IMG/VR virus record: IMGVR_UViG_3300025127_000041
Location: 1 to 58,157 of that record
From: a virus
DNA length: 58,157 nucleotides
Direction: 5' to 3' (one strand)
The stretch's first letter is position 1; each line of letters begins with the position of its first letter. A model generated the notes under the pieces. It saw only the letters and a program-made list of their open reading frames with translations, searched no databases and had not been told where the DNA came from. Shown here piece after piece: positions 2,300-40,600 of the stretch. A program made the translations under genes and the position numbers.

Positions 2300-2314
2300 A
2301 TAAATAAGCAAAAG

Positions 2315-2337
2315 CCCACCTAAACGGTGGGTTTTTT
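2315..2337 (+). terminator. Rho-independent terminator
   Basis: CCCACC (2315-2320), loop TAAAC, GGTGGG (2326-2331), then six T. The groEL promoter motif begins two bases after the T-tract, so the chaperonin operon is transcriptionally separated from the genes before it. Confidence 0.9.
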
Positions 2338-2338
2338 G

Positions 2339-2346
2339 TATATTTG
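2339..2346 (+). promoter_or_regulatory. Promoter of the groEL-groES operon
   Basis: TATATTTG followed by TA, directly behind the terminator and 19 bases before ATG 2366. The leader is AT-rich (ATTAAATCAA) without a Shine-Dalgarno site, as is usual for Bacteroidota. Confidence 0.7.
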
Positions 2347-2365
2347 TAAAAAATAATTAAATCAA

Positions 2366-3925
2366 ATGATAGTAAAACAGGTACACCTTGGCGACAGCGG
2401 CCAAGAGAAACTAAGGGCTGGAATCAAGAAAATTGCGGGAGCTGTAAAGAGCACACTAGGGGCTAGGGGACGTACTGTCCTTATAGAGTCAGAGAATCAT
2501 GTCGGTGGCATAACGGTCACAAAGGACGGTGTGACGGTCGCCAAGTCGATCAACCTATACGACCCGACCGAGAACCTGGCTGTGATGATGATGCGTCAGG
2601 CTGCCGAGAAGACTGCCACTATGGCTGGCGACGGGACGACTACATCTATCGTACTAGCGGAGGCGATCATAGACGCAGCGGAGATGTATATAAAGGATGG
2701 TGACAACGTGACCGAGGTCATCAGGGAGGTCAATTCCATAGCCGAGCGTATAGACACACACCTCAAGAAGAAGAGCAAGAAGGTTAGCGGTAGACGTCTC
2801 AGGGATGTCGCTACCATATCCGCAAACAACGACAGGAAGGTCGGTGATATGATTGCTGGAGCGTTTGAGGAGGTAGAGATGGTTACGGTTGAGAACAGTA
2901 TGAACTCTGATACCTATGTAGACATCATCAAGGGTATGCGTATCGAGCGTGGTTACACATCGAAGTACTTCGTGACTGACCAGAAGAAACAGGAATGTGT
3001 GATGGAGAACCCGTATGTATTGATCACGGACCACGAGATCAGTAACCTGGCAAACATAGAGAACATACTGAAGCCTATCGTGGCACAGGGCAAGCCCCTG
3101 TTGATCATAGGAGAGCTGAGTCAGAATGTGCTTAACACATTGAATGTCAATGCATTACAGGGTAAAATTAAGGTGTGTAACATACTCCCTCCAAACTTTG
3201 GGTACAGGCAGAAGGAACTCCTAGAAGATCTGGCGGTCGCACTTGGAGGTACATACTTCTCTGACGACACTGGGGACGACCTGTCTGTGATACAGTTGGG
3301 AGACCTGGGGCGTGCGGCAAAGATAGTCGTGCGTAAGGACATGACGGTTATTATGCATTCAGAGGAGATGGCTGACACGATAACTGACCATGTAGAGGTG
3401 TTGAAGAAGGTTGTTTGGACTACAGAGAGAAAGGAGGACAGGGACTTCCTTCAGGAGCGTATTGCTAACCTATCTGGCGGCATAGGTGTGATACATGTAG
3501 GTGCACTCACTGATATAGAGCAGAAAGAGAAGCGTGACAGGATCGACGATGCAGTCTGTGCAGTGCAGGCGGCTATCGAGGGTGGTATACTACCTGGAGG
3601 TGGTATAGCCTTGCTTAATTCTATGGATCTGGTTGATTCTGATTCTGTGGCGTCTAATATAGTTAAGCATGCACTGTTCGCACCATTTAATCAGATACTA
3701 GAGAACGCTGGTAGAGATGGAGCATTCACGGTAAAAGACTTAGGCAGGGATGGCGTTGGATACGATGTGAGGAATGATAAGGTGGGTGACATGATCAAGA
3801 TGGGAATAATAGACCCAGCTAATGTAACACGAAACGCACTAGAGAACGCTGTATCTGTTGCGACCACAATAATGAGCACGAGTTCAATAATAACAAACGT
3901 GAGAGACAATGGAGATACTAAATAA
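2366..3925 (+). CDS. groEL: Phage-encoded chaperonin GroEL (Hsp60)
   Basis: 519 residues aligning by eye over the whole GroEL length (usually about 545). ATP-site motifs are present: TVTKDGVTVAKSI (residues 50-62) and GDGTTT (88-93, Asp89 matching Asp87 of E. coli). RIDDA has Asp395 matching the catalytic Asp398, followed by AAIEGGILPGGGIAL. The C-terminal Gly-Gly-Met tail of bacterial GroEL is missing; the protein ends in a charged stretch. GroEL folds proteins inside a double-ring cavity in the cytosol. Its final 17 bases overlap the groES-like gene. Phage GroELs are known, for example in Pseudomonas phages EL and OBP, but remain uncommon. It probably folds a phage protein such as the capsid or a large tail protein. 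Confidence 0.96.
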   Translation: MIVKQVHLGDSGQEKLRAGIKKIAGAVKSTLGARGRTVLIESENHVGGITVTKDGVTVAKSINLYDPTENLAVMMMRQAAEKTATMAGDGTTTSIVLAEAIIDAAEMYIKDGDNVTEVIREVNSIAERIDTHLKKKSKKVSGRRLRDVATISANNDRKVGDMIAGAFEEVEMVTVENSMNSDTYVDIIKGMRIERGYTSKYFVTDQKKQECVMENPYVLITDHEISNLANIENILKPIVAQGKPLLIIGELSQNVLNTLNVNALQGKIKVCNILPPNFGYRQKELLEDLAVALGGTYFSDDTGDDLSVIQLGDLGRAAKIVVRKDMTVIMHSEEMADTITDHVEVLKKVVWTTERKEDRDFLQERIANLSGGIGVIHVGALTDIEQKEKRDRIDDAVCAVQAAIEGGILPGGGIALLNSMDLVDSDSVASNIVKHALFAPFNQILENAGRDGAFTVKDLGRDGVGYDVRNDKVGDMIKMGIIDPANVTRNALENAVSVATTIMSTSSIITNVRDNGDTK

Positions 3926-4166
3926 ATTTATTCTGGTCGAGAGGGTCTACGAGAAGAAGACTAGTTCAAGCGGACTTATAATGAGCGACGAGGACTCAAA
4001 CGATATGCGTTACCAGCGTGGTAATGTTAAGGATGTTGGATTTAATGTAAAAGGTATAGAGGGTGGAGACACCGTTATATTTGATAAGGTATCGGCACAC
4101 GATGTGTTGATAGGGGATGACAGGTTTACTATCATTCAAGAGAAGGACGTTGCCTGCGTTCTTTAA
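3909..4166 (+). CDS. groES: GroES-like co-chaperonin (Cpn10)
   Basis: 85 residues with the Cpn10 pattern: an N-terminal strand (ILNKFILVERVYEKKT), a mobile-loop region (about 15-36) with LIM in place of the GroEL-binding IVL, then RGNVKDVG, GDTVIFDK and a closing ILIxEKDV-like strand (FTIIQEKDVACVL). GroES caps the GroEL ring. Start ATG 3909 overlaps the groEL end by 17 bases, so the two are co-translated as one operon. The final 35 bases overlap the opposite-strand regulator gene. It is somewhat shorter than bacterial GroES (about 95) but retains all core elements. Confidence 0.87.
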   Translation: MEILNKFILVERVYEKKTSSSGLIMSDEDSNDMRYQRGNVKDVGFNVKGIEGGDTVIFDKVSAHDVLIGDDRFTIIQEKDVACVL

Positions 4167-7274: not shown

Positions 7275-8024
7275 ATGTCAAGCTACTACCGTTCTATATT
7301 AAACATACTAACAGTACCGTTCACGAATACTAAGAGTATATTACTTGATGGTGTGGATGATTATGTAGACTGTGGTAATCCTTCAAGTTTAAACTTTCAA
7401 CATACAGAACCTTTTTCTTTTAGTTTATGGTTTAAGAGAGATGCTAATAATATTTTTCACATACTATTATCTAAAATGAATCCATCAGGTAATCGTAGGG
7501 GTTACTTTTTAGGTATAAATTCAAGCAATGTTGTTGCAGTTATGTTAAGAACAGATACATCTTTTACATCACAAAACTTAACTTATAAAAGCACCAATAC
7601 TATAACAGATACTAATTGGCATCATATAGTTTTTACTTATGATGGTTTAACTGCACAAAGCAGTGGTAAAATTTATATTGACGGGGTAGCTGAAACAGTT
7701 GTTGCAACAGGTGGTGGTTCAATAACAAGTATAGAGTCATCTGCTACAACTCCTTTTTTAATGAGTGCGTTAAATACAACACCTTTATTACCTGCTAATG
7801 GTAATATTGACGAGGTTGGAATTTTTGGTTCAGAGTTATCAGCAAGTGATGTTACTGCGATATACAATAGTGGAGTGCCTAATGACCTTAGTTCATTGTC
7901 TCCTGTATCTTGGTGGCGTTGTGGTGATGGAGATACTTCTCCAACTCTGACAGATAACGGCAGTGGTGGCAATAATGGAACCATGACCAACTTTAGTACA
8001 TTCAGTACAGACGTACCAACATAA
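7275..8024 (+). CDS. LamG-like adhesin, paralogue A
   Basis: 249 residues: shared N-terminal block (SSYYRSILNILTVPFTNTKS then ILLDGVDD, residues 2-29), a LamG-like jelly roll with FSLWFKRD, WHHIVFTYDG and NGNIDEVGIFGSELSASDV, and a shared C-terminal block (CGDGDTSPTLTDNGSGGNN...FSTFSTDVPT, last 35 residues). The two ends are nearly the same in the genes at 8034 and 9151, whereas the middle differs. The termini probably anchor the protein and the middle contacts the receptor (inference). Confidence 0.82.
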   Translation: MSSYYRSILNILTVPFTNTKSILLDGVDDYVDCGNPSSLNFQHTEPFSFSLWFKRDANNIFHILLSKMNPSGNRRGYFLGINSSNVVAVMLRTDTSFTSQNLTYKSTNTITDTNWHHIVFTYDGLTAQSSGKIYIDGVAETVVATGGGSITSIESSATTPFLMSALNTTPLLPANGNIDEVGIFGSELSASDVTAIYNSGVPNDLSSLSPVSWWRCGDGDTSPTLTDNGSGGNNGTMTNFSTFSTDVPT

Positions 8025-8033
8025 ACTAAAGAT

Positions 8034-8705
8034 ATGTCAAACTACTACCGCTCCATATTAAACACTCTAACAGTACCGTTCACGAATACTAAGAGTATAT
8101 TGCTTGATGGAGTGGATGATGAAGTAACATTTAGTGATTTAACAAGTTCAGGCGTTTTTACTTTGTCTTTTTGGATGAAGCCAACAGTATTTAATTCTAA
8201 CAGTGGTAGCTTTGTAATGGGTAGTAGTGCTAATTCTCAAAACTTTATAAAACTACAAAGTGCAACTCAATTAAATTTTAAAATTGGTAATTCAGCTGCT
8301 ACATTTACTGAAAGCTCAAATGTTTTAGTATTAAATCAATGGCAGCACATAATGCTTGTTAGAGATGCTTCAAACAATGTTTTCGCCTATAGAAATGGTG
8401 CTGCTTTTGGTAGTTCAGTTGCGAAAACTACTACTCTTATAATTAATACCTTTAGTGAAATAGCAAGCTTTTTTACTTATAGTGGTGGTTTAGACGAGTT
8501 TGCTTTTTTTACTACTGACCAAACCGCCAACTTAACGGCAATATACAACGGAGGTCTACCTGCATCACTTGCATTATATAGCCCGCTAACTTGGTATAGA
8601 TGTGGTGATGGAGATACAGCTCCTACACTAACGGATAACGGAAGCGGTGGCAACAACGGAACGATGACAAACTTCAGTACGTTCTCAACTGACGTACCTA
8701 CATAA
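8034..8705 (+). CDS. LamG-like adhesin, paralogue B
   Basis: 223 residues. Same N-terminal (SNYYRSILNTLTVPFTNTKS) and C-terminal (CGDGDTAPTLTDNGSGG) blocks as paralogues A and C. The central jelly roll is shorter, with FTLSFWMKPT, WQHIMLVRDASNNVFAYRNG and GGLDEFAFFTTDQTANLTAIYNGG. The N-terminal block is conserved at DNA level; the C-terminal block differs mainly at synonymous positions. The next gene has its own promoter motif. Confidence 0.8.
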   Translation: MSNYYRSILNTLTVPFTNTKSILLDGVDDEVTFSDLTSSGVFTLSFWMKPTVFNSNSGSFVMGSSANSQNFIKLQSATQLNFKIGNSAATFTESSNVLVLNQWQHIMLVRDASNNVFAYRNGAAFGSSVAKTTTLIINTFSEIASFFTYSGGLDEFAFFTTDQTANLTAIYNGGLPASLALYSPLTWYRCGDGDTAPTLTDNGSGGNNGTMTNFSTFSTDVPT

Positions 8706-8715
8706 ATAAAATTAT

Positions 8716-8723
8716 TATCTTTG
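8716..8723 (+). promoter_or_regulatory. Promoter motif TATCTTTG inside the adhesin array
   Basis: TATCTTTG followed by TG, 16 bases before ATG 8740. It gives the last two adhesin-region genes (8740 and 9151) a start independent of the upstream copies. Confidence 0.6.
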
Positions 8724-8739
8724 TGTAAAACATAAAGAA

Positions 8740-9150
8740 ATGCCAACAATACCATATAACGAACAATTTGTCGGGATATCAGCCTCAGAGGATTTAATCG
8801 AAAGAGGATCAGCTCAGACAAACAGTGCAAGAACAATCTATACATACGCTGACATTCGAGGTCAAGCACAGTCCGCTGTAGCCATGGCAGGCGTAGTAAT
8901 CTCATTCACAGAGAATGAAATTTATAACACCTCAGGTGCAGCAGGAACGGGTAACATAACTAACAACCTTACGGATGCTAAGTTAGGAATCGTTCAGAAG
9001 CTATACCACCAAGAGGGGTCAGCTCCTTCAGTACCTGCGGGATGGGTTCTTATGGGCTCAGGTACATACAGTACAACAGCTCTTAATGTAATCTATGCTG
9101 AGTGGTGTGGAGGAACAAGAGTTGAGTATTGGATTGTACAGCCTGCATAG
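8740..9150 (+). CDS. Tail-fibre-region structural protein, unknown
   Basis: 136 residues, Thr/Ala/Gly-rich and beta-prone, no signal peptide (start MPTIPYNEQFVGISASEDLI; end YAEWCGGTRVEYWIVQPA). It sits between LamG copies with its own promoter, and its stop is directly followed by the ATG of the next adhesin. A virion or fibre-associated role is inferred from context only. Confidence 0.65.
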   Translation: MPTIPYNEQFVGISASEDLIERGSAQTNSARTIYTYADIRGQAQSAVAMAGVVISFTENEIYNTSGAAGTGNITNNLTDAKLGIVQKLYHQEGSAPSVPAGWVLMGSGTYSTTALNVIYAEWCGGTRVEYWIVQPA

Positions 9151-9897
9151 ATGTCAAGCTACTACCGTTCTATATTAAACATCCTAACAGTTCCATTCAC
9201 CAATACCAAGAGTATATTACTTGATGGTGTGGATGATTTTGTTACAATGGGAGATGTGTTAGACACATCAGATACAGCTGCAGATGCGTTGAGTCTTTCC
9301 TTATGGTTTAAAACAACTGATGGTTCTACTCAAGTTTTAGTCGGAAAACAAAATCCTAATTCACCATTTGAAGGTTATAGTATAGCCATAGTGAGCAGTA
9401 ATAAGATTTATTTCAACATTGGTAATTACACAGGGAATAAATACATACAATTAAGAAGTAGTGCAATTAGCAATTTATCCAATGGAAATTGGCATCACAT
9501 AGCAGTCACTTATGATGGCAGCAGAGCAGCAAGTGGAGTAAATATATACTTTGACAATAGCCCTTTAACTCTGACTATTGGCAACAATCAGCAGCCAGTT
9601 GGCACTCAAAATAGTCAAGACTTTATGATTGGGGCAAGGGGGACAAGTTCATCTAATGCATTGGAGTTTAATGGTAATATTGACGAGGTTGCATATTTTA
9701 CATCTGAACTATCAGCAAGTGATATTAATTCAATTTATGGCACAGGCGTTCCCAATGATATCAGTAGTTTAAATCCTGTTGGTTGGTGGAGATGTGGCGA
9801 TGGAGATACTTCCCCTACACTTACGGACAATGGCTCAGGAGGCAACAATGGTACAATGACTAACTTTTCAACTTTTAGCACAGATGTGCCTACTTAA
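9151..9897 (+). CDS. LamG-like adhesin, paralogue C
   Basis: 248 residues. N-terminal block almost identical in protein and DNA to paralogue A (7275), C-terminal block the same as A. The jelly roll has LSLSLWFKTTDGS, WHHIAVTYDGSRAASGVNIYFD and NGNIDEVAYFTSELSASDI. The central sheet edge differs strongly from A and B. Likely one of a set of alternative or co-assembled receptor-binding proteins. Confidence 0.82.
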   Translation: MSSYYRSILNILTVPFTNTKSILLDGVDDFVTMGDVLDTSDTAADALSLSLWFKTTDGSTQVLVGKQNPNSPFEGYSIAIVSSNKIYFNIGNYTGNKYIQLRSSAISNLSNGNWHHIAVTYDGSRAASGVNIYFDNSPLTLTIGNNQQPVGTQNSQDFMIGARGTSSSNALEFNGNIDEVAYFTSELSASDINSIYGTGVPNDISSLNPVGWWRCGDGDTSPTLTDNGSGGNNGTMTNFSTFSTDVPT

Positions 9898-12474: not shown

Positions 12475-12679
12475 AAAGATATCTGTCGGTCCAGACTATA
12501 TGAAGTGTATGCACTACGTTGTTGGTCAGGAGGTTCTAAATAGAACTTACATAATAGAATCAATAATACAGGATCATACCGCTATATCTATATATATACG
12601 AAAGGATGATGAAATAGTTAAGTGGAAAGAGTTTAGTTCTACGATGCCTGTTTCTATAGAGTTTAAAATAGACTTCTGA
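12461..12679 (+). CDS. Small protein in the packaging region, unknown
   Basis: 72 residues from GTG 12461, overlapping the previous gene. The next in-frame ATG is at 12500 and would remove 13 residues including RKISVGPDY, which I recall as the start of related phage proteins, so GTG is preferred. Beta-rich (EVLNRTYIIESIIQDHTAIS). Its TGA overlaps the next ATG. Confidence 0.6.
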   Translation: MNIIRKISVGPDYMKCMHYVVGQEVLNRTYIIESIIQDHTAISIYIRKDDEIVKWKEFSSTMPVSIEFKIDF

Positions 12680-13236
12680 TGAAGTCTCCATACTGCTTCG
12701 TTATAAAACCTGTCGATGGAAGGCGTTATGATAACATACGTAGCTATGATGGAAAGGAGTTTATCATAAGTACGTCACAAGAGGATCACACCGTATCAAA
12801 TAGATTTGCAGAGGTTTTATCCATCCCTATATACTACGACGGACCTGTAAAGACAGGTGACATTGTTATAGTTCATCATAATGTGTTTAGGTATTATTAT
12901 GATATGCAAGGCAATCAAAAGAGTAGCTGGCATCACGTAATGAATGACATCTTTATAGTCGAGTCAAGTCAGTTATATCTTTATATGAGAGATGAGGTAT
13001 GGATGGCACCAGATCCTTTTTGCTTTGTTAGACCGATAGGGTCTGAGGACCATATGTTCACACAGCTAGGTAATCTTGAGCAGCTGTGGGGTGAGTTGGT
13101 ATTTAAGAATGATAAAATAGACTACGTCAATCAGGGAGATATAATATCATTCACACCAGACAGTGAGTACGAGTTCAGAATAGGTGAGGAGATACTTTAT
13201 AGAATGTACAATAGAAATATATGTCTAAAAAGGTAG
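12679..13236 (+). CDS. Tandem Cpn10-like domain protein (possible second co-chaperonin)
   Basis: 185 residues. Two halves each show a Cpn10-like order. First: PYCFVIKPVDGRR (4-16), a loop, FAEVLSIP, KTGDIVIVHHNVF (58-70), then DIFIVESSQLY (90-100). Second: DPFCFVRPI (112-120), GELVF (138-142), NQGDIISFTPDSEYEF (151-166), LYRMYNRNICL. The GD(I)VIxxxxxxx plus terminal DIxxV strands match GroES, but no GroEL-binding mobile loop is obvious. It may form a cap with seven sites from fewer chains, or be a structural relative in the head. The fold is inferred by eye. Confidence 0.6.
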   Translation: MKSPYCFVIKPVDGRRYDNIRSYDGKEFIISTSQEDHTVSNRFAEVLSIPIYYDGPVKTGDIVIVHHNVFRYYYDMQGNQKSSWHHVMNDIFIVESSQLYLYMRDEVWMAPDPFCFVRPIGSEDHMFTQLGNLEQLWGELVFKNDKIDYVNQGDIISFTPDSEYEFRIGEEILYRMYNRNICLKR

Positions 13237-19320: not shown

Positions 19321-20754
19321 ATGGCTGGATCATTACAGGCCACTCCAGGTGTAGCAATTACACCGAGTTCGGTCAAGGCAACATTGCCTACAAATTACAT
19401 CACCAATTTCGACTTCTTGACACAGTATCTTCCAGATACTTACGAAGCTGAATTTGAGCGATATGGAAACAGATCAATCTCATCATTCTTGAGAATGGTC
19501 GGTGCAGAACTTCCTACTAACTCTGACTTAATCAAGTGGGCAGAGCAAGGACGTTTACACACAAAATACGAAGCGATGACTTTCGCTGCATTTGGTGCTC
19601 CTGCTGCAGGACAGCAAGTGTTTACTATGGCGGGTGCTCCTGGAACAGGAATGGTATTTAGAAAAAACCAAACAGTATTCTTATCATCAGATCAAGCGTC
19701 AGCTGAGTCTGCAAAGGGTGTTATTGTTGCTGTTACTGGTGGAACTTTTACCGTAGCATACTACACGGATTTCGCTGCAAGTCCTTTTACAGCTGCAACT
19801 ACTTCTGTAACAGCATTCGTTTACGGATCTGAATTTAAGAAAGGTTCCGCAGGGATGGAAGGTTCGTTAGAGGCTGAAGATTCAATCTTCTCTTGCAAGC
19901 CAATTATCATCAAGGACAACTACGAGGTGTCTGGATCTGATATGGCTCAAGTAGGATGGGTTGAGGTTACAACTGAAAACGGTGCAACTGGATATCTATG
20001 GTACTTAAAGTCAGAGCACGAGACTCGTCTACGATTTGACGATTACTTAGAGATGGCTATGGTTGAGGGTGTTCCTGCAGAAGGTACATCTGGAGCTGAA
20101 GCTTACTTATCTACAAATGCAGGTGCTGCTGGAGTAGATGCTGGAAACGCAGGTACTGAAGGTATGTTTGACACTATCGAGAATAGAGGTAACGTATGGT
20201 CAGGTGGTAACCCAGCTGCATTGGCAGACTTTGATACAATCGTACAACGTCTTGACAAGCAGGGTGCTATCGCTGAGAACGTATTGTTCTTAAACCGTCA
20301 GTTCTCTTTCGATATTGACGACATGCTAGCAGCTCAAAACTCTTACGGAGCAGGTGGTACATCTTACGGATTGTTTGACAATTCAGAGGAGATGGCACTT
20401 AACCTTGGATTCTCTGGATTCAAGAGAGGTTATGAGTTCTACAAGACTGACTGGAAATACTTAAACGATGCTACGCTTCGTGGAGGTTTGACAGGAGGTG
20501 CTGTAAACGGTGTTCTTGTACCAGCTGGTACTACATCAGTGTACGATCAAGTTCTTGGTAAGAACGCTAAACGTCCATTCTTACATGTACGTTACAGAGC
20601 TTCTGAGGCTGAGGATCGTCGATACAAAACTTGGATGACAGGTTCTGCAGGTGGAGCTATGACTAGCGACATCGATAAGATGCAGGTTAACTTCTTGTCA
20701 GAAAGAGCACTTTGTGTTATGGGAGCTAATAACTTCGTATTGTTCAAAGGATAA
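19321..20754 (+). CDS. Major capsid protein
   Basis: 477 residues, Ala/Gly/Thr-rich with balanced charge, placed after scaffold and followed by a strong terminator. Typical stretches: NYITNFDFLTQYLPDTYEAEF near the N-terminus, EDSIFSCKPIIIKDNYEVSG, and PFLHVRYRASEAEDRRYKTW near the end. I infer an HK97 fold from order, length and similarity of pattern to crAss-like capsid proteins. Codons differ from the neighbours in favouring common forms, as expected for the most abundant protein. It is a likely client of the phage chaperonin. Confidence 0.88.
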   Translation: MAGSLQATPGVAITPSSVKATLPTNYITNFDFLTQYLPDTYEAEFERYGNRSISSFLRMVGAELPTNSDLIKWAEQGRLHTKYEAMTFAAFGAPAAGQQVFTMAGAPGTGMVFRKNQTVFLSSDQASAESAKGVIVAVTGGTFTVAYYTDFAASPFTAATTSVTAFVYGSEFKKGSAGMEGSLEAEDSIFSCKPIIIKDNYEVSGSDMAQVGWVEVTTENGATGYLWYLKSEHETRLRFDDYLEMAMVEGVPAEGTSGAEAYLSTNAGAAGVDAGNAGTEGMFDTIENRGNVWSGGNPAALADFDTIVQRLDKQGAIAENVLFLNRQFSFDIDDMLAAQNSYGAGGTSYGLFDNSEEMALNLGFSGFKRGYEFYKTDWKYLNDATLRGGLTGGAVNGVLVPAGTTSVYDQVLGKNAKRPFLHVRYRASEAEDRRYKTWMTGSAGGAMTSDIDKMQVNFLSERALCVMGANNFVLFKG

Positions 20755-23599: not shown

Positions 23600-26500
23600 A
23601 TGGAGCTAAAGAAGACATTCCTAGCAGGAAAGATGAACAAAGATCTTGACCAAAGACTCCTGTCTGGTGGTCAGTACTCTGATGCATTGAATATAACTAT
23701 AGACACGTCTGAGGGATCTAATATTGGATCTGTTTCAAACTCACTAGGTAACACACTTAAGGGAGATATAACAACGATACTAAACTCATACACACCAGCG
23801 ATAGGATCTACAAATGCCAGGACTATAGGTGCAGTAGAGTACGAGGCATTGAACCTGATATACTGGTTTGTAGCGGCAGATGAGTATGACGCAATATTTG
23901 AGTACAACGAGATAGACAACACTATAGCACAGATTCTTATATGTACAAAGACTGGTGGTAATCCAAGTAAGCTTAACTTCAATCATCAGTACTTGATTAC
24001 AGGGGTTAATTATCTACCTGGGCACAAGGATGACGGTGCACTACTGTTTTGGACGGACAACTATAATCCACCCAGGAAGATAAACATAGCAAGGGCTAAA
24101 GGGTATTCGGTGGATGACAGTCGTATTGATAACGACATAGATGTAATAATTAGACCGCCATTACATGCACCAGCCATATACCCAAGCAAGGGGCTTACTC
24201 AATCAAATAACATGGATGAGAGGTTTCTTTACTTCTCGTACAGGTATAAATATGTGGATAACGAGTACAGTTCAATGTCACCATTTTCAGGTGTTGCATT
24301 TAAACCTGGTGAATATCAAGTAGATCCTCTTAACGGTGACAATGCCGCCATGGTTAATGAGTATAACGAGTGTAGGATTGTATTTGAAACTGGTAATCAG
24401 TTTGTTCAAGAGATACAACTACTTGCGTATGACACAAGAAGTCTTAATGTCAAAATAGTAAAGTCTATAGACAAAGAGGAGGAGCAGCTTAATGATAATG
24501 CTGTTGGTAGCTACACTTTTAACAATAACAAGATATACGCACCACTACCAGCCGATCAGGTTACTAGGCTGTTTGACAATGTACCTCTTCTGGCTAAGTC
24601 TCAAGAAATAATAGGTAACAGGTTGATATATGGTAACTACACTCAGTTTCAGGACGTTGATGAGGTTTTATTTAGCGTCACATATTCATCTACAGACACC
24701 GCTAAAAATACCCCAATAAGTACATTTAGGACAGATAGGGATTATGAGGTAGGAATTATATATGGTGATGACTACGGACGTATGACTACGGCATTAATAA
24801 GTAATGACAACTCGGTATATATACCGCCCTCTGTTTCTGACAAGGGTAATAGTCTAAAGGTAAGAATAGAAAACACAGCTCCTGTTTGGGCTACAAATTA
24901 TAGGTTGGTTGTAAAGCAATCGAAGAAGAATTACTACAACATCTTTCCATTATGGTACTATGTAGATGGTCCATTTAGATACTTTAGAATAAACGAGTTT
25001 GACAGAGATAAATTTAAGGTTGGTGATTATGTAATATTTAAATCATCAGGTACGGGACCGACGTATTCCAATAAAGAGTATAAGATACTTGAGTTTGAGT
25101 TAAAGCCAGATGGATTTGAAGATATATCACAAGCTGAGGCGGGGCTTTATTTTAAAATAAAGGTAGACTCACCCAATCTATTTACAGACAATGATAAGTT
25201 CCAGGCAATTTGGCAGCATACTGGGACAAGTCGACCTGTAAACCCCTCAATTTATGCCAACCCTGACGAAAAATATGCAAAACTACCTGTCGCTATATTT
25301 GGGAATAGTTATATTGACCCTCACACTCCATACTATGGGTCAAACGATGCCAACTCTATGTCGGTATCAGACGCTCAGTTTATTTCAGCGTCAGAATTAC
25401 CAGGCTCGTCAGCTACATGGGCAGCTGGTCACGCAGACATGAGGATCACTGTAGAGATAGATAGTGTGACAGCAACAGATGTTACATTTAAATACACAAA
25501 AGATATAGATGAAGGTACATATATAGAAGAAAACGTATCTATATCTAGTCCTCATTTTCTTATGAGTCCTACATCAACCTCTTCCTTACCGATCTGCAGA
25601 ATTGCCTTTAATCAAAACTCGGCATATAGCGTGGGTGATAAATGGAAGATTCTTTGCAGGAGTAATAAAAGCTTCGGTATAGCGGCTAATTATTTTCAAT
25701 CGCCTGGGGAAGACGCTGGTGCGGTTCCTACATTTTTAACTGATATATCAGATGAAGGTGATGGAAAATACGGTGGCGGTGCCGTTGGAATTGTAACTCG
25801 AAATTCTTCAGATGCAAATGTTAATAAAGAGATAGAGATACAGGCGTTAGCCAAAATTAAAATTCACATCCTACAAGATAGGAATCCGTCAGGTGAAAAT
25901 TCAGTTAATACACCTCAAGCTGAACAGGTTTTTGTATCAGATAGAAAGTATGATAACATAGAGGAGTGGTTTGTAGAATCTGGAGCATATAAGGATTTTG
26001 TTCAGTTTAACAGAAGCGGGGACGACGTAGGTGCAACAGGTGTATGTTTTAGAAGGGCTAGATATGCTGTAGATGGTTTTACTGGAGTAACTCAGCAAGA
26101 TGTTGAACTCACTCAGGAAAGAAGTGATTTTGTTGACATCACACGGTACTCATCTGCTTATCCGACACTTCCAACTGAGGACTATCCTGTCAGGATGATT
26201 ATAAAAGGATTTGGTAAAAGTAAACAATATGGTTTATTAGACCCTCAATTTGGTGAATCCGCTGCCAGAAATAGTATTAGAGTAAGATTTAGAATAGAGC
26301 AGTTAGACAATCCATTGGCTTGTGAGACGGAGCCTCTGGATCAGGATTTGGAGATATATCACGAGGTAACAGACTCTAAAGATATAGTAAACAACCTTCA
26401 TCAGGTAGGATGGAAGTATGCAGATTTTACACATGCCAACACTGTATTTCCAGACATTACATCTATAGTCGATAAGACAGTTCTAGGACCTGCCTATACA

Positions 26501-27769
26501 GGACAGGTATCGGTACCTAACCCTGCAAGCACAGACAGCCCTCACAATTTTTCAGTAGGTCAGAGCGTATATGTATATGGGGGTACATCAAACGTAACTG
26601 ATGGATATTACACTATAACATACATACCAAACCAGTACTCTATAGTTATAGACCTATCATGGCCTGGTAGTGGATCTCCAGATGTCAATCAACGTGTCTA
26701 TCATCAGGACTGGGAGGCAGATCAATCTACCACTCAGGCCGCTACCATTGAGATCAATCAGACGTCCGCACTCAACAGTCAGTTCAACGCATTTGCCTTT
26801 GGTAACGGTGTGGAGTCTGATAGAATAAAGGATGACTTTAACGCTGCCTCTATGAAGTTTAGCCCAAGGGTTACAAGTATTATAGAGGACTACGAGAACG
26901 AGCGTAAGGAGGCCTCATTGACATACAGCGGAGTGTTTAGGGGAGATACATCTATCAATAGATTGAACGAGTTTAATCTATCTCTGGCAAACTTTAAGGA
27001 TCTCGATAGAGAGTTCGGTCCCATTCAAAAGCTATATGCAAGAGACACAGATGTATTTGTTCTTCATCAGGACAAGATAAACAAGGTGTTGTATGGTAAG
27101 AATGTATTGTTCGATGCCGTAGGTGGCGGACAGGTCGCCTCTATACCTGAGGTATTAGGGAACGAGATGCCATATCCTGTTGAGTACGGGATAAGTAACA
27201 ACCCAGAGAGCTTTGCCACAAATGCTGGTAATATGTACTTCACAGACTCAAGACGTGGATGTGTTGTAGGGATAGAGAAAAATGCTGTAAATGAGATATC
27301 TTCACTAGGTATGACTGACTATTTTAGGGACGAGCTTAAGGACAATCCAGAGACGCAAAAGTTAGGGGCATATGATCCTTATTCTAACAGGTATACATTG
27401 TCTACAAATAATACTAGAAGATCATCACCATGTGAATTGACTATTCGACCGTCTACACTTAGTGTTGAGAATAATTCTGGCGGTGTTTCTATGTTTATGT
27501 TTAACATATCTACAGCTCTGTCATGGGCGATCACATTGGTTGACACAGGATCAGGTACATCTTGGGTTAGCTTATCAAGCACGTCAGGATATGGAGCTCA
27601 AAATATTTACGCAAATGTTGCAAATAACTTCTCAGGTTCCACAAGAACTATTAACTTTGTTGTAACATACTGCACCAGCGTGACACAGACATTTACTTTA
27701 ACGCAGGCCAAAGGTGGTAAGGGTACAGTTAGACCTATTATAATAAATAAACCAGAGGATAAAAAATGA
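23600..27769 (+). CDS. Large tail stabilisation-type protein with C-terminal BACON domain
   Basis: 1389 residues. The start MELKKTFLAGKMNKDLDQRL and SDALNITIDTSEGSNIGSVS matches the xFxxGxMNKDLDERL...DALNIxxxTSEGSxVGxVxN signature I know from stabilisation proteins of Bacteroidota and marine podoviruses. The body is beta-rich with propeller-like repeats. Residues about 1277-1372 form a BACON domain: CELTIRPSTLSVENNSGGVS, LSWAITL, GTSWVSLSSTSG, TRTINFVVTYC, TQTFTLTQAKG. BACON folds occur in Bacteroidota surface proteins and may hold the phage at the cell or in mucus. It ends in an ATGA overlap with the fibre gene. Confidence 0.8.
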   Translation: MELKKTFLAGKMNKDLDQRLLSGGQYSDALNITIDTSEGSNIGSVSNSLGNTLKGDITTILNSYTPAIGSTNARTIGAVEYEALNLIYWFVAADEYDAIFEYNEIDNTIAQILICTKTGGNPSKLNFNHQYLITGVNYLPGHKDDGALLFWTDNYNPPRKINIARAKGYSVDDSRIDNDIDVIIRPPLHAPAIYPSKGLTQSNNMDERFLYFSYRYKYVDNEYSSMSPFSGVAFKPGEYQVDPLNGDNAAMVNEYNECRIVFETGNQFVQEIQLLAYDTRSLNVKIVKSIDKEEEQLNDNAVGSYTFNNNKIYAPLPADQVTRLFDNVPLLAKSQEIIGNRLIYGNYTQFQDVDEVLFSVTYSSTDTAKNTPISTFRTDRDYEVGIIYGDDYGRMTTALISNDNSVYIPPSVSDKGNSLKVRIENTAPVWATNYRLVVKQSKKNYYNIFPLWYYVDGPFRYFRINEFDRDKFKVGDYVIFKSSGTGPTYSNKEYKILEFELKPDGFEDISQAEAGLYFKIKVDSPNLFTDNDKFQAIWQHTGTSRPVNPSIYANPDEKYAKLPVAIFGNSYIDPHTPYYGSNDANSMSVSDAQFISASELPGSSATWAAGHADMRITVEIDSVTATDVTFKYTKDIDEGTYIEENVSISSPHFLMSPTSTSSLPICRIAFNQNSAYSVGDKWKILCRSNKSFGIAANYFQSPGEDAGAVPTFLTDISDEGDGKYGGGAVGIVTRNSSDANVNKEIEIQALAKIKIHILQDRNPSGENSVNTPQAEQVFVSDRKYDNIEEWFVESGAYKDFVQFNRSGDDVGATGVCFRRARYAVDGFTGVTQQDVELTQERSDFVDITRYSSAYPTLPTEDYPVRMIIKGFGKSKQYGLLDPQFGESAARNSIRVRFRIEQLDNPLACETEPLDQDLEIYHEVTDSKDIVNNLHQVGWKYADFTHANTVFPDITSIVDKTVLGPAYTGQVSVPNPASTDSPHNFSVGQSVYVYGGTSNVTDGYYTITYIPNQYSIVIDLSWPGSGSPDVNQRVYHQDWEADQSTTQAATIEINQTSALNSQFNAFAFGNGVESDRIKDDFNAASMKFSPRVTSIIEDYENERKEASLTYSGVFRGDTSINRLNEFNLSLANFKDLDREFGPIQKLYARDTDVFVLHQDKINKVLYGKNVLFDAVGGGQVASIPEVLGNEMPYPVEYGISNNPESFATNAGNMYFTDSRRGCVVGIEKNAVNEISSLGMTDYFRDELKDNPETQKLGAYDPYSNRYTLSTNNTRRSSPCELTIRPSTLSVENNSGGVSMFMFNISTALSWAITLVDTGSGTSWVSLSSTSGYGAQNIYANVANNFSGSTRTINFVVTYCTSVTQTFTLTQAKGGKGTVRPIIINKPEDKK

Positions 27770-34620: not shown

Positions 34621-37600
34621 ATGGCGGAAGATAATCCAATAGAAGGCTTAGATACCACTCAATCGGCATTTCAGCCAGTTGTTGATACAATGAATCAGGA
34701 TATCCTTGAGGATCTTAGTAGAACTACCACTACGACTACGATGTATATATCGGGTGACACATCTCAGTTTAACAAGCCAGAAGAACCAGAGCAATTAGAA
34801 GATCCTTATGGTATACGTGAGGCTGTAAATATATTTAGGGTTAGACAGTCTGATGCTGGAGAGTCGCCATCTGTTGGAGATATAAAAAAATTATTTCCAG
34901 AATCTAGTGCACAAGAAAGGCTACAGATAGAGTCCGCTTACCCAGATCTTTTTAAGGAGGATGCATCTTATAATAAGGTTTTAGATACAGAGTATCAGAA
35001 GGGTATCGAAAAAGGAATGTCTAGCTCACAAATACTAGATGACCTCGTAAAAAAACAAACAGGAACAAAGATAGGATTGATTGCTAGAAGGCCAGACCTG
35101 TTTAACGAGCAGACAATAAAAGAAGAAGAAACCAAGTTACGATTAGACACAAAGGAATTTCAGGAAAAGGAAAACAAAATAAAATCTTTAAAGGACGAGC
35201 GTGAGAACGCAAGTTTCAATAGAAAAAGAGGCATAGATATAGAGCTGGCTAAGTTGGAGGGTGATATAGAGATCTTAAGCAAGATGGCTAAAGATACTGA
35301 CTATAAGAAAGATAAGGCACTCTTTGATCTGGGTAGAAAAATTAGCGTGGATACACAAGACTTGTCAGAGGCAGACCTTGAGTCTATATCTAAAAAACTA
35401 GATCCAAACTATGTTGTACCCATATTAAACAACCCACAAGAGAAGAGTGTGTTTGAGATGACCAACACACTTGTGGGATCAACAGGCGGTCTAGAGATAG
35501 CTGATGATGACTTTATAGAGGTATACAAGAAGGGCAACTATGATCCTGAAAAGCATTCTCAGTACGACGAAAAACTATCTCAGGTAATAAATGGGTTTGT
35601 ATCTGAGGAGCTTCCTGTAGATATACATCAATCGTTCTATGATAGAAACAATATTTCTAAGAATGATTTAGTTCTAAGAAATAAGATGATAATCAGAAAT
35701 GTTCCAGACTTTAATCAGGGTAAGATATACTCGATAGAAGAGATGGAAGAGCTTGAAAAAAGGGCTGAGGAGAACTTAATAAATAATTATGGAGATATTG
35801 AGTTCGATGAATTAAAGATTATACTTGGTGACGACATAACACCTAAAGACGTATACAACAGAAGCCTTAGGTCCAGTATGTATACTAATTCAAAATTAAA
35901 CGATGCGATTGTTGTTGATGATGAAGAAGCAACACTAGAAAATTTACAGACACTGTTCCCTGAGTCGACAAGTTTGTTTAGGTTTGACACCAGAACAGAT
36001 GGAAAGAACTCTATCATTATAAGGACATTTGTAGCTGGAGAAGAGTTAAATTCAACTGAGATAAATTTAGATGAAGAAAACGAACCACTTAGAAAGATAA
36101 GAGACTTCATGTCTGGAGCAATGCCGCCTGCAAACGTGCAGAGAAAGATTATGGAGGTCGCTGATGGACAGGGTGAATTTATAAAAGAAGACGGAAGTAT
36201 AGATAAAGTTAAATTATCACTATACACTACAAAATATCCAGAAATATTTGGAGATGTTGACGCATATACAGCTGATGATTTATTAACTACCTGGGAGAAG
36301 TCTCCGTTTATGATTGACAAAGCTGACATAAGAAGAAACATAAGATACCAGGAATCACTTGTTAATAATTACACTGCAGAAGGAAGAAAGGATGTAGATC
36401 TAGAACAACTTCAATTATTAGATACACAGGCTGCATTGGCTGATCAGATTCATCAAGAAAAATTAATACAGAAAGGGGGCGGTTTAGCTGGTCTTAGCGT
36501 GTACAGTTACCTAGAACCTGTTGCCAGAATTGTAGAATTTTTTGATGATCAGGCAACAAATGTTCAGGGACTTTTTGGTTATGTGGATAGTTTAAGTGAT
36601 GAAGAGTATAAAAGTTTGAGAGCTAAAGGCCTTAGTGATGAAGACATAATAAGAACTGAAAAGGCCTATATAAAGGAAAAGACAGAGGCTAGTCTCAACA
36701 GAATAGTAAGTGGATTTAGCGGGGAGACACAGCAGAGTATAGCGGAGCAAGGTTTTCTTGCTGAAGCTTTTGCTACCGCAATACAATCTTTAACCACAAT
36801 GGCTGTAGGTCTAGGTGCAAAAATACCTACAATAACTGCGTTTGGAATTAGATCTCAGGTATCATTAGAGAATGAGCTTAAAGATACCGATCTGTCTGAC
36901 ACTGAAAAGTTTGCAATAACATTACCTATGGCTGTACTTGAAGGTGTTCTTGAGGAATGGGGGTTACAAAAAATATTTAAACCTGGGGTTACTGCTTCTA
37001 AAAAACTAATACTATCTAAAGCATTACCTAAGATAAAAAAAGGAGCAACTCCTGCACAGATAAAAAAATCTATACAAAGAGCTATTGAAGAGCTTTCAGG
37101 TGGGACGATAGAAAAGATAGGTAGGGCTGGTATTTATGAAGGTATGACAGAGTTTGGACAGACGGCTTCAGAGATAAATCTAAAGACACTTGCAAACAGT
37201 ATAAGCGAAAAAGATTTATTTAAGGACGTCCCTAACATGTTTACTCCTGAAGGTTTTATAGATGGAGTAAATCAAATAGGTAAAGCTACCGCTATGGGAT
37301 TTGTTGTGGGTTCTGGAATAAACACAGCCTCACAAGCAAAAAGTCTAGCTAATGGATTTAAAAAGTCAGACAACGATGTATCTATGGATGAAGCCTTTGA
37401 TATGATCACAAGCAATGATAGACGTGAAATATTTTTTGACAGGCTAGACCTAAGAGTACTGGCTGGGGAAATAACAGATGTTGATGCTAGAACCATAAAA
37501 GAAAATATTGATAAGGCTTACCCTTTAATGATGCAGATACCTGCTACATTTAGTAGTAATCAAAAAGAAGAAGCATACAACTTACTACTTGAAAAGCAGG

Positions 37601-40600
37601 AGCTAGAACAAGAGGTTAAAGATAAAAACAAAAACCTTGTGGTCGAACAGACCGAAAGAATAAATGAGATAGATAGACAGTTAGAATTAATAAGTAAAGG
37701 AGAATTAAAAGATGCCGTTCAAGAGTCAGAAACAAAGGAGGAAGTGTTACCAGATGAACAGCCCGAAATGGGACTGCAAGATGTGGGACAAGGAGACACC
37801 CAAGAACAAGAAGCTACCGAAGTACAGCAAAAAGAATTAGTAGATGATGATGTAGTCACGGAAGAGTATGTCAAAGAGTTAGAGGATATAAAGCAAAGTG
37901 ATCCTGAACAATACTGGAGTGTAGACAGTGTAAGCTTGGAAGATGCCAAGGAAGGTACGGTTATATCGGTAGAGGGAGGAAAGGGTATTGTCGGTCCTGA
38001 CGGTGACATAAAAGGTGTATTCAAATCTAAAGATTCTAAAGCTGAAAAGGTGGCAGATAAGATCTTGGAGGAAGCTGTTAAAAATGGGGGTACTAAGTTA
38101 GATAACTTTGACAACTATCTGACTCGTATATATAAACGAAATGGATTTAGGGTTGCAAGTAGAACACCCTTTAATGAGGAGTTTGCTCCTGATGGATGGA
38201 ACAAAGAAAAACATGGAACTCCCGACGTGGTTGCGATGGTTTACGATCCTGAATCTAAGTTGGATATAGAGGAAAAAACATTTGATAATCCTGAAACTGG
38301 GTATGATGAAATGATCGCATACAGAGATTCATTTATTGAAGCTCCCGCAGCAGAGCAGGTTACTGAAGATGTGGTAGAAGACATAACTCCTGAGTTTGCA
38401 GAAAATATAAAAAACATAGAGAAGCAGGCGGAAAACGCTAGAAGGGCTATATCTAAAGTATTGCCAGGTGTAGAGATAATCACACACTCTACAGAGGAAT
38501 CATACAGGAAGGCCACTGGTGAGACGGACAGTAAGAAGCAGGCCACTCGTGGTGAGTATAACCCTAATACAAAGACTATACACATCAATCAATCTAAAGC
38601 TAACAACAGAACGGTAGGTCACGAGGTATTTCATGCCGTGCTTTTAGAGAAGGTTAAAACAGATAACGCAGCAAAGGATCTTACAGATCGTATGATAAAG
38701 TCTGTTTCTAAAAACCTTGAGGGCATGCCTGAGGTCAAGGAGGCCTTGGATGAATTTGCTGCCAACTATGACCAGAACATACAGAACGAGGAAAAGCTCG
38801 CAGAGCTGGTAGGTATACTGGCAGGTAACTATGCACAGATGAACAAACCTAGTCAAAGTCTGATTAAGAGGTTTCTAGATCGACTGGCCAAGATGTTTGG
38901 ACTGAAGCCATTCACTGACGGTGAGGTGGTCGATGTTCTAAATGCAATAGCTGGTAAGGTTGCACTCGGTGAGGAGATCAGTGATGTGGACCTAAAGGTT
39001 ATTCCTTCACCAACCGATTCAAAAGGAAATTTAAAAACGCCATCAAAAAAATCACAGAATAATCTTAAGAAGAGAAAACAAAATATAATAGATGGAGTTA
39101 AGGATCAAGTTGTATCTGGAGAAATTGTTAGCACATCTTTACCAAATAAAGATGATGTTCATTCTAGTAAAGAATATGTAGTAGGTATATCTTCACTTGA
39201 AAAAATAGCTAATACAGATAAAAGAGCTAAGGATCAATATATTAAGATTGCTAAAGAGGCAGCTTCATACGGAATATCTAAAACTAAAGATGTAAATAAT
39301 TTTGAAGATGCTAAGAAAGTTATATCTGAGTTTAAGCAAGTTGTGAAGTCAAATTTAAAATGGCTTCATGACTCAGTAGATAAAGATGTTAGAGATATAT
39401 CTAAGTTATGGTATGACGGAGCTAATAAAATATCTAATGATTTAGCAAATGAATATGGGTATACAACAGAGCAAGTTTCTGGAGTAATGGCTGTACTAAG
39501 TCCTCAGATGGACTGGTTTAGAAATTTATCTTTAGGAGAAAGAGTTATTGATATATATAAAAATAATCAAGACTCATTGTTTGATGATAAAATGATAGAA
39601 TTCGTTGAAACAAAAACAACTGGTACTGGTAAAAATAAAAAACCTCTTTTTAAAAATAAAGAAGAAATAATATCAAGAGTAAAAAATAAAAAATTATCCG
39701 AACTAAATGCTAAAGATCAATCATATTTTATAAGAGTTTATGATGAAGTATATAATTCTAGAAACTATAATAACATAACTCCTAACGGAGAAATAAATGG
39801 ACTTGTTAGAACTAAAAGTGGTAACCCTGGTAAGGTTGGCTGGGGAGATTTTTCTACTATTGAAAAAGCTATATCTATACTGAATGATGGATCAGTAAAA
39901 AACATTTCTACAAATTTAGGTAATCAACATAAAGTAAGAAATTTCTTTAATAACATATCAAATCCTAATGATAAAAATGCAGTTACTATTGATACTCATG
40001 CTGTTGCAGCTGCATTATTAAAACCTTTATCAGGTAAATCAAAACAAGTAACTTATAATTTTGGAGGTGCATCAGCTGTATCTACTGGTATGACTGGAAC
40101 ATATCCCGTCTATGCAGATGCTTATAGAGAATTAGCTAATGAATTAGGTATTCTTCCTAGAGAAGTTCAAAGTATAACATGGGAAGCGGGTAGAGGTTTG
40201 TTTAAGGCTGTATTTAAATCTAACAAAAGCAATGAAGAAAAAATAAATAATGTTTGGAATCAATATGAGTCTGGAAGTATATCATTAAAACAAGCTCAAT
40301 CAAAAATAGACAAGTTAGCAGGAGGTATAAGCACGCCTGTATGGTATGAATATTTAGCTGATGAGAATGTTGAATCACTAGATAAAAACTCAGCAGCTTT
40401 AGATCAAGCGGCTTTAGACGAAGAGGTATCTATAGATGATCAGGTCACAACCCCATCCAAGCGTAAGCAGAAGGACGAAGGTCCTGTAGAGCCAAGGATT
40501 GACATCAGAAATCTGAAGAAGAAGTCTGATAAGAAGATCAAGGAGATAAACAAGGGTAAGGGCCCGATACTTAGAAGACTAAGAAGATCACTGTTCGACA

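Follow-up and report, generated by a model that had tools for sequence, protein, structure and literature searches.

A complete and divergent groEL–groES pair of a phage family, with an altered lid-docking groove and ring contact

Why would a phage encode both the ring and the lid of a chaperonin, and on which proteins would they act? The locus that raises this question lies in a virus record that we analysed over its whole length of 58,157 bases (hereafter, the window). On its plus strand, groEL (2366–3925; 519 residues; Pfam PF00118, Cpn60_TCP1, E = 3.4e-60) overlaps at its 3′ end by 17 bases with groES (3909–4166, also plus strand; 85 residues; PF00166, Cpn10, E = 4.1e-11). Both Pfam matches are far above the cut-off, and the phage GroEL covers positions 1–488 of the 490 in the PF00118 profile, so that its Cpn60 domain is full length. 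An earlier note on this DNA had proposed a complete groEL–groES operon behind its own terminator and promoter, and both claims were borne out. A GC hairpin followed by a T-run, resembling an intrinsic terminator (2310–2336, plus strand; 11 pairs in a consensus scan), ends the upstream gene (1160–2299), and a comparable hairpin and T-run are visible in many of the relatives' upstream regions. Next to it stands TATATTTGTA (2339–2348, plus strand), which fits TAnnTTTG, the consensus of the Bacteroidota-type −7 box. The window holds four copies of this exact 10-mer versus 0.4 expected, and of 50 distinct upstream regions, that of the window among them, 47 have a TAnnTTTG box no more than 60 bases from the start of groEL, compared to 3.1 expected from shuffles; these relatives are not independent, yet the sequence around the kept box varies widely. 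No −33 element was identified with the −7 box upstream of groEL. From the promoter type and the relatives, we infer a host of Bacteroidota type.

The catalytic core of the phage GroEL is intact. Residue alignment confirmed the ATP site and catalytic Asp395 read earlier from the sequence, with the ATP loop at D89-G-T-T-T (D87 in E. coli) and D395 equivalent to E. coli D398, and the equivalents of E. coli D52, D87 and D398 are invariant in 59 of 59 phage pairs. The Gly-Gly-Met tail is indeed lost, the phage protein ending in ...VRDNGDTK. The earlier note had missed the substitutions L234E and V263N, a drifted ring interface, a short GroES roof and a second GroES-like protein encoded elsewhere in the window. 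In the groove, the L234 position (E. coli numbering) is Glu in 58 of the 59 distinct phage pairs, where bacteria have Leu, Met, Val or Ile, and the V263 position is Asn in 52 of them, where bacteria have Val; F204, L237 and L259 are kept, the first two largely so across the phage pairs. The groove for lid and client (L234, L237, V263 and V264) is thus only partly hydrophobic in the phage GroEL, and a hydrophobic groove is a usual, not a required, feature of the family. Judged from the alignment, these changes would alter the function expected of the protein, not its membership of the group I chaperonins. Acidic or polar substitutions in the E. coli GroEL groove impair binding of both clients and lid; our literature search on L234E mutants found no paper. 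In E. coli GroEL, the GroES tripeptide is contacted by L234, L237 and V264 (PMC3514286).

The lid is a Cpn10 fold with a mobile loop, as indicated by the PF00166 match and by an AlphaFold2 model (pLDDT 80.5) whose significant Foldseek matches are all Cpn10 (best, 1.7e-5). The mobile loop reads SGLIM, with Leu-Ile-Met as the lid tripeptide. This tripeptide had been taken as a sign of a private pair, which does not hold up, as the sampled bacterial loops include GIII, GIVL, GLII and GIYI and Met is known at these loop positions; LIM is ordinary variation. In 59 of 59 phage pairs the roof loop has eight residues; in Bacteroidota it mostly has 12, in E. coli 17. The predicted structure is devoid of roof strands. 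Some bacterial GroES proteins (Campylobacterota, Nitrospirota) also have an eight-residue roof loop, so a short roof alone is no proof of specialisation, and the idea that roof loss is unique to the phages was weakened by these phyla and by the 12 residues already found in Bacteroidota.

We consider it likely that this is a phage-owned group I chaperonin which, during infection, folds virion proteins of ~50–60 kDa, the major capsid protein being the most likely one, probably as a private pair and maybe as a single ring. The operon's own promoter would give both subunits from one overlapping message; GroEL, an ATP-driven ring, would capture the client, and the short-roofed phage GroES would dock through its Leu-Ile-Met loop, closing the ring into a cage that ATP hydrolysis would reset. 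Such a cage would run on standard ATP machinery but differ in its groove for docking, its tail-less floor, its roof and the contact between rings; of the two parts that would intrude on it, the tail of GroEL is gone, and GroES has only a short roof. Together, the changed groove, lost tail, short roof and unconserved ring contact suggest that the pair is probably private, with little cross-talk with host GroES.

The suggested client is a 51.3-kDa virion structural protein (19321–20754, plus strand; phrog_13704, 3.1e-103, annotated as 'head and packaging, virion structural protein'), which its size and its position after terminase and portal mark as the probable major capsid protein. A sequence search of this candidate against the PDB gave no match. 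Its size and the parallel with Gp31 and gp23 make it the probable client as well; nothing else links the operon to the capsid gene. T4 Gp31 is without roof loops, and the 56-kDa capsid protein gp23 cannot fold without it (PMC6318259). Like the phage GroES, Gp31 has a short roof (10 versus 8 residues) and a comparable mobile loop (ESGLII versus SSGLIM); unlike the system in the window, it is a lid only, uses the host GroEL and has no close sequence relation to the phage protein. With its own groEL adjoining it, the phage groES does not show the Gp31-type combination of a lengthened mobile loop with reliance on host GroEL, and its product would work like Gp31 without being a member of the Gp31 type. 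Of the clients suggested earlier, the capsid remains the likelier candidate; the 2929-residue protein (34621–43410) was rejected as an enclosed client on size, since at 331 kDa it is too big, and the capsid-sized 51-kDa protein fits better. The 2929-residue protein has matches to DUF7178 (PF23802), a family without an assigned function.

The pair might instead have no dedicated client, and supplement or replace host GroEL and GroES for many host and phage proteins in a general takeover or as a buffer against stress. The fully intact catalytic core, the retention of F204, L237 and L259, and the promoter box present in nearly all relatives, which allows the operon to be expressed independently of the structural genes, would all suit such a role, but L234E and V263N fall in the groove for hydrophobic clients and lid, which one would expect a general chaperonin to retain; we regard this explanation as unlikely.

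A dedicated folding cage, our preferred reading, might consist of one ring or two. Positions at the inter-ring contact that are conserved in bacteria rank near the bottom for conservation in the phage clade (no random draw out of 20,000 was as low). As to seven-membered rings, which are usually paired, these unconserved residues are suggestive only, and the lost interface residues could be replaced by other contacts; with the other changes, they indicate that the chaperonin may work as a single ring. A weakened lid lets an engineered single-ring GroEL cycle (PMC5575113), which by analogy suggests that the phage system may have a single ring to which its lid docks weakly. Phage chaperonin pairs are already known; what merits testing is the change at the lid-docking site and at the contact between rings.

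The giant-phage chaperonins (EL gp146, OBP and AR9) resemble the window GroEL in being phage-encoded rings of GroEL type; to our knowledge, they have no GroES partner, and the AR9 protein shares with the window GroEL only 22% identity over three quarters of its length. That the GroEL studied here is, like EL gp146, a holdase or anti-aggregation ring that makes only partial use of GroES is distinctly improbable. The phage EL chaperonin blocks aggregation without encapsulation and alternates between a single and a double ring (PMC7185714), and the inter-ring residues have drifted in the window clade as well; however, its relationship to that clade is distant, and groES in the clade is always present, mostly overlapping groEL and co-inherited with it.

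The second GroES-like protein (12679–13236, plus strand; 185 residues) lies directly 5′ of the terminase large subunit gene, which is downstream of it in 80 of 80 fetched relatives. It matches phrog_13932 (3.3e-17), annotated as 'co-chaperonin GroES', and was found in 20 of the 23 records searched, including elemovirus and Calle_2. Its C-terminal half matches the GroES profile (E = 1.3e-6); the sequence-profile search gave no GroES support for the N-terminal half, and comparison of the two halves gave no significant sequence match. In its structural model (pLDDT 81.7), the best Foldseek match, over the full length, is the Cpn20 subunit 7ekq_R (2.4e-5), and the predicted structure also matches the annotated Cpn10 of Cellulophaga phage phi18:3. 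The protein is accordingly predicted to be a tandem, two-domain GroES like plant Cpn20. It resembles chloroplast and algal Cpn20 in this full-length predicted fold, but shares only 11% identity with it and is GroES-like by profile in the C-terminal half only, making it a putative co-chaperonin. A 'chaperonin cpn10' is among the core proteins of Pervagoviridae (PMC8776804). The position of this GroES-like protein beside the terminase suggests that lid-like proteins may play a broader part in assembling phage heads. A bolder and quite tentative version of the single-ring idea, which we would not expect to hold in full, is that the chaperonin is naturally single-ring, that L234E and V263N weaken docking enough for the lid to cycle with no second ring, and that it has two lids, the short-roofed GroES and the tandem Cpn20-like protein, the latter for head assembly or packaging.

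How long the phages have held the pair can be read from its divergence. The closest bacterial GroELs among the matches listed are 38–43% identical to the window protein, with mostly Bacteroidota at the top, and in the tree the window GroEL falls within an all-phage clade (SH-aLRT 99), outside cellular Bacteroidota. When the longest branches were removed, a weakly supported branch (94) separated the phage clade plus Bacteroidota from the remaining sequences, which is consistent with an old acquisition from Bacteroidota but no proof of it. GroEL and GroES distance matrices are correlated (r = 0.88; 0 of 2000 permutations), and dN/dS is ~0.06–0.08 for groEL and 0.05–0.12 for groES where computable, indicating strong purifying selection on both. 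Moreover, gene order in bacterial loci is the opposite of that in the phage clade, groES preceding groEL in 76 of 80 and following it in none. That the operon was recently captured from a host and plays no special part in the phage, a reading favoured only by the membership of both proteins in the ordinary GroEL and GroES families, is very unlikely in view of the identity to the bacterial matches listed, the tree and the gene order, the phylogeny giving no near-identical placement inside one recent host clade such as a simple captured operon would have. By these comparisons, the pair appears long held, altered and common to the whole phage family, having diverged as a unit from cellular systems.

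One scan of IMG/VR yielded 75 GroEL relatives, most with 63–93% identity and a few down to 35%, and both genes are present, groEL first, in ~70 IMG/VR contigs. In every related locus with room for it, groES lies directly 3′ of groEL, mostly overlapping it, except in the most distant one (L069; 35%), which has no GroES in its 43.9-kb record and no Bacteroidota-type box upstream. Whole-record searches found Cpn10 in 31 of 32 records. As groEL is present in all 10 of the related records above 60 kb that were checked, it would be a core gene of the phage family, not cargo.

Among annotated phage records, 259 of 50,697 encode a GroEL relative, many of these being near-identical isolates. The isolated elemoviruses (Flavobacterium phages; NC_055853) and the Manatee Spring phage (MW202828) resemble the window in having groEL followed by groES, ~60-kb genomes and a second GroES-like protein beside the terminase, their GroELs being 39% and 48% identical, respectively, to that of the window. 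The elemovirus differs in having Leu at 234 and the ATP loop DSTTC (groEL at 8001–9563 of NC_055853), where DGTTT is nearly universal. In immutovirus, Calle_2 and DAC19, groES precedes groEL. Both GroEL and GroES homologues were also noted in some phages in the part of a 2020 paper (PMC7185714) that cites the virioplankton chaperonins of Marine et al. (2017), a likeness to the window. Chaperonin pairs in phages are thus uncommon but already known, and their rarity had been overstated. Of the earlier interpretation, the complete, divergent and co-inherited pair stands, and the rarity, the LIM loop and the 2929-residue client fall away. A further candidate, a groES–groEL locus labelled 'Acinetobacter phage MD-2021a' (CAKLQH020000021.1; L088), was rejected as a phage locus on account of its bacterial housekeeping surroundings; pckG, groS–groL and dgkA around the match make it look like bacterial DNA in a phage collection.

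As a complete, long-diverged pair in a core genome, this chaperonin offers a natural test of what GroEL and GroES cannot do without. Should a working cage be possible with Glu where the lid docks and with a drifted ring interface, this would bear directly on single-ring cycling, and the pair could serve as a tool for folding capsid-sized proteins.

Two further observations concern the window at large. A 1389-residue virion protein (23600–27769) has a match to PF25731 (1.3e-12), the Crassvirus muzzle protein family, a hint that this ~60-kb phage family and crAss-like phages may have tail parts in common. Positions 40–160, at the record's left end, are of low complexity, with alternating ACGTGTGT/ACATGCGT and GGCA repeats.
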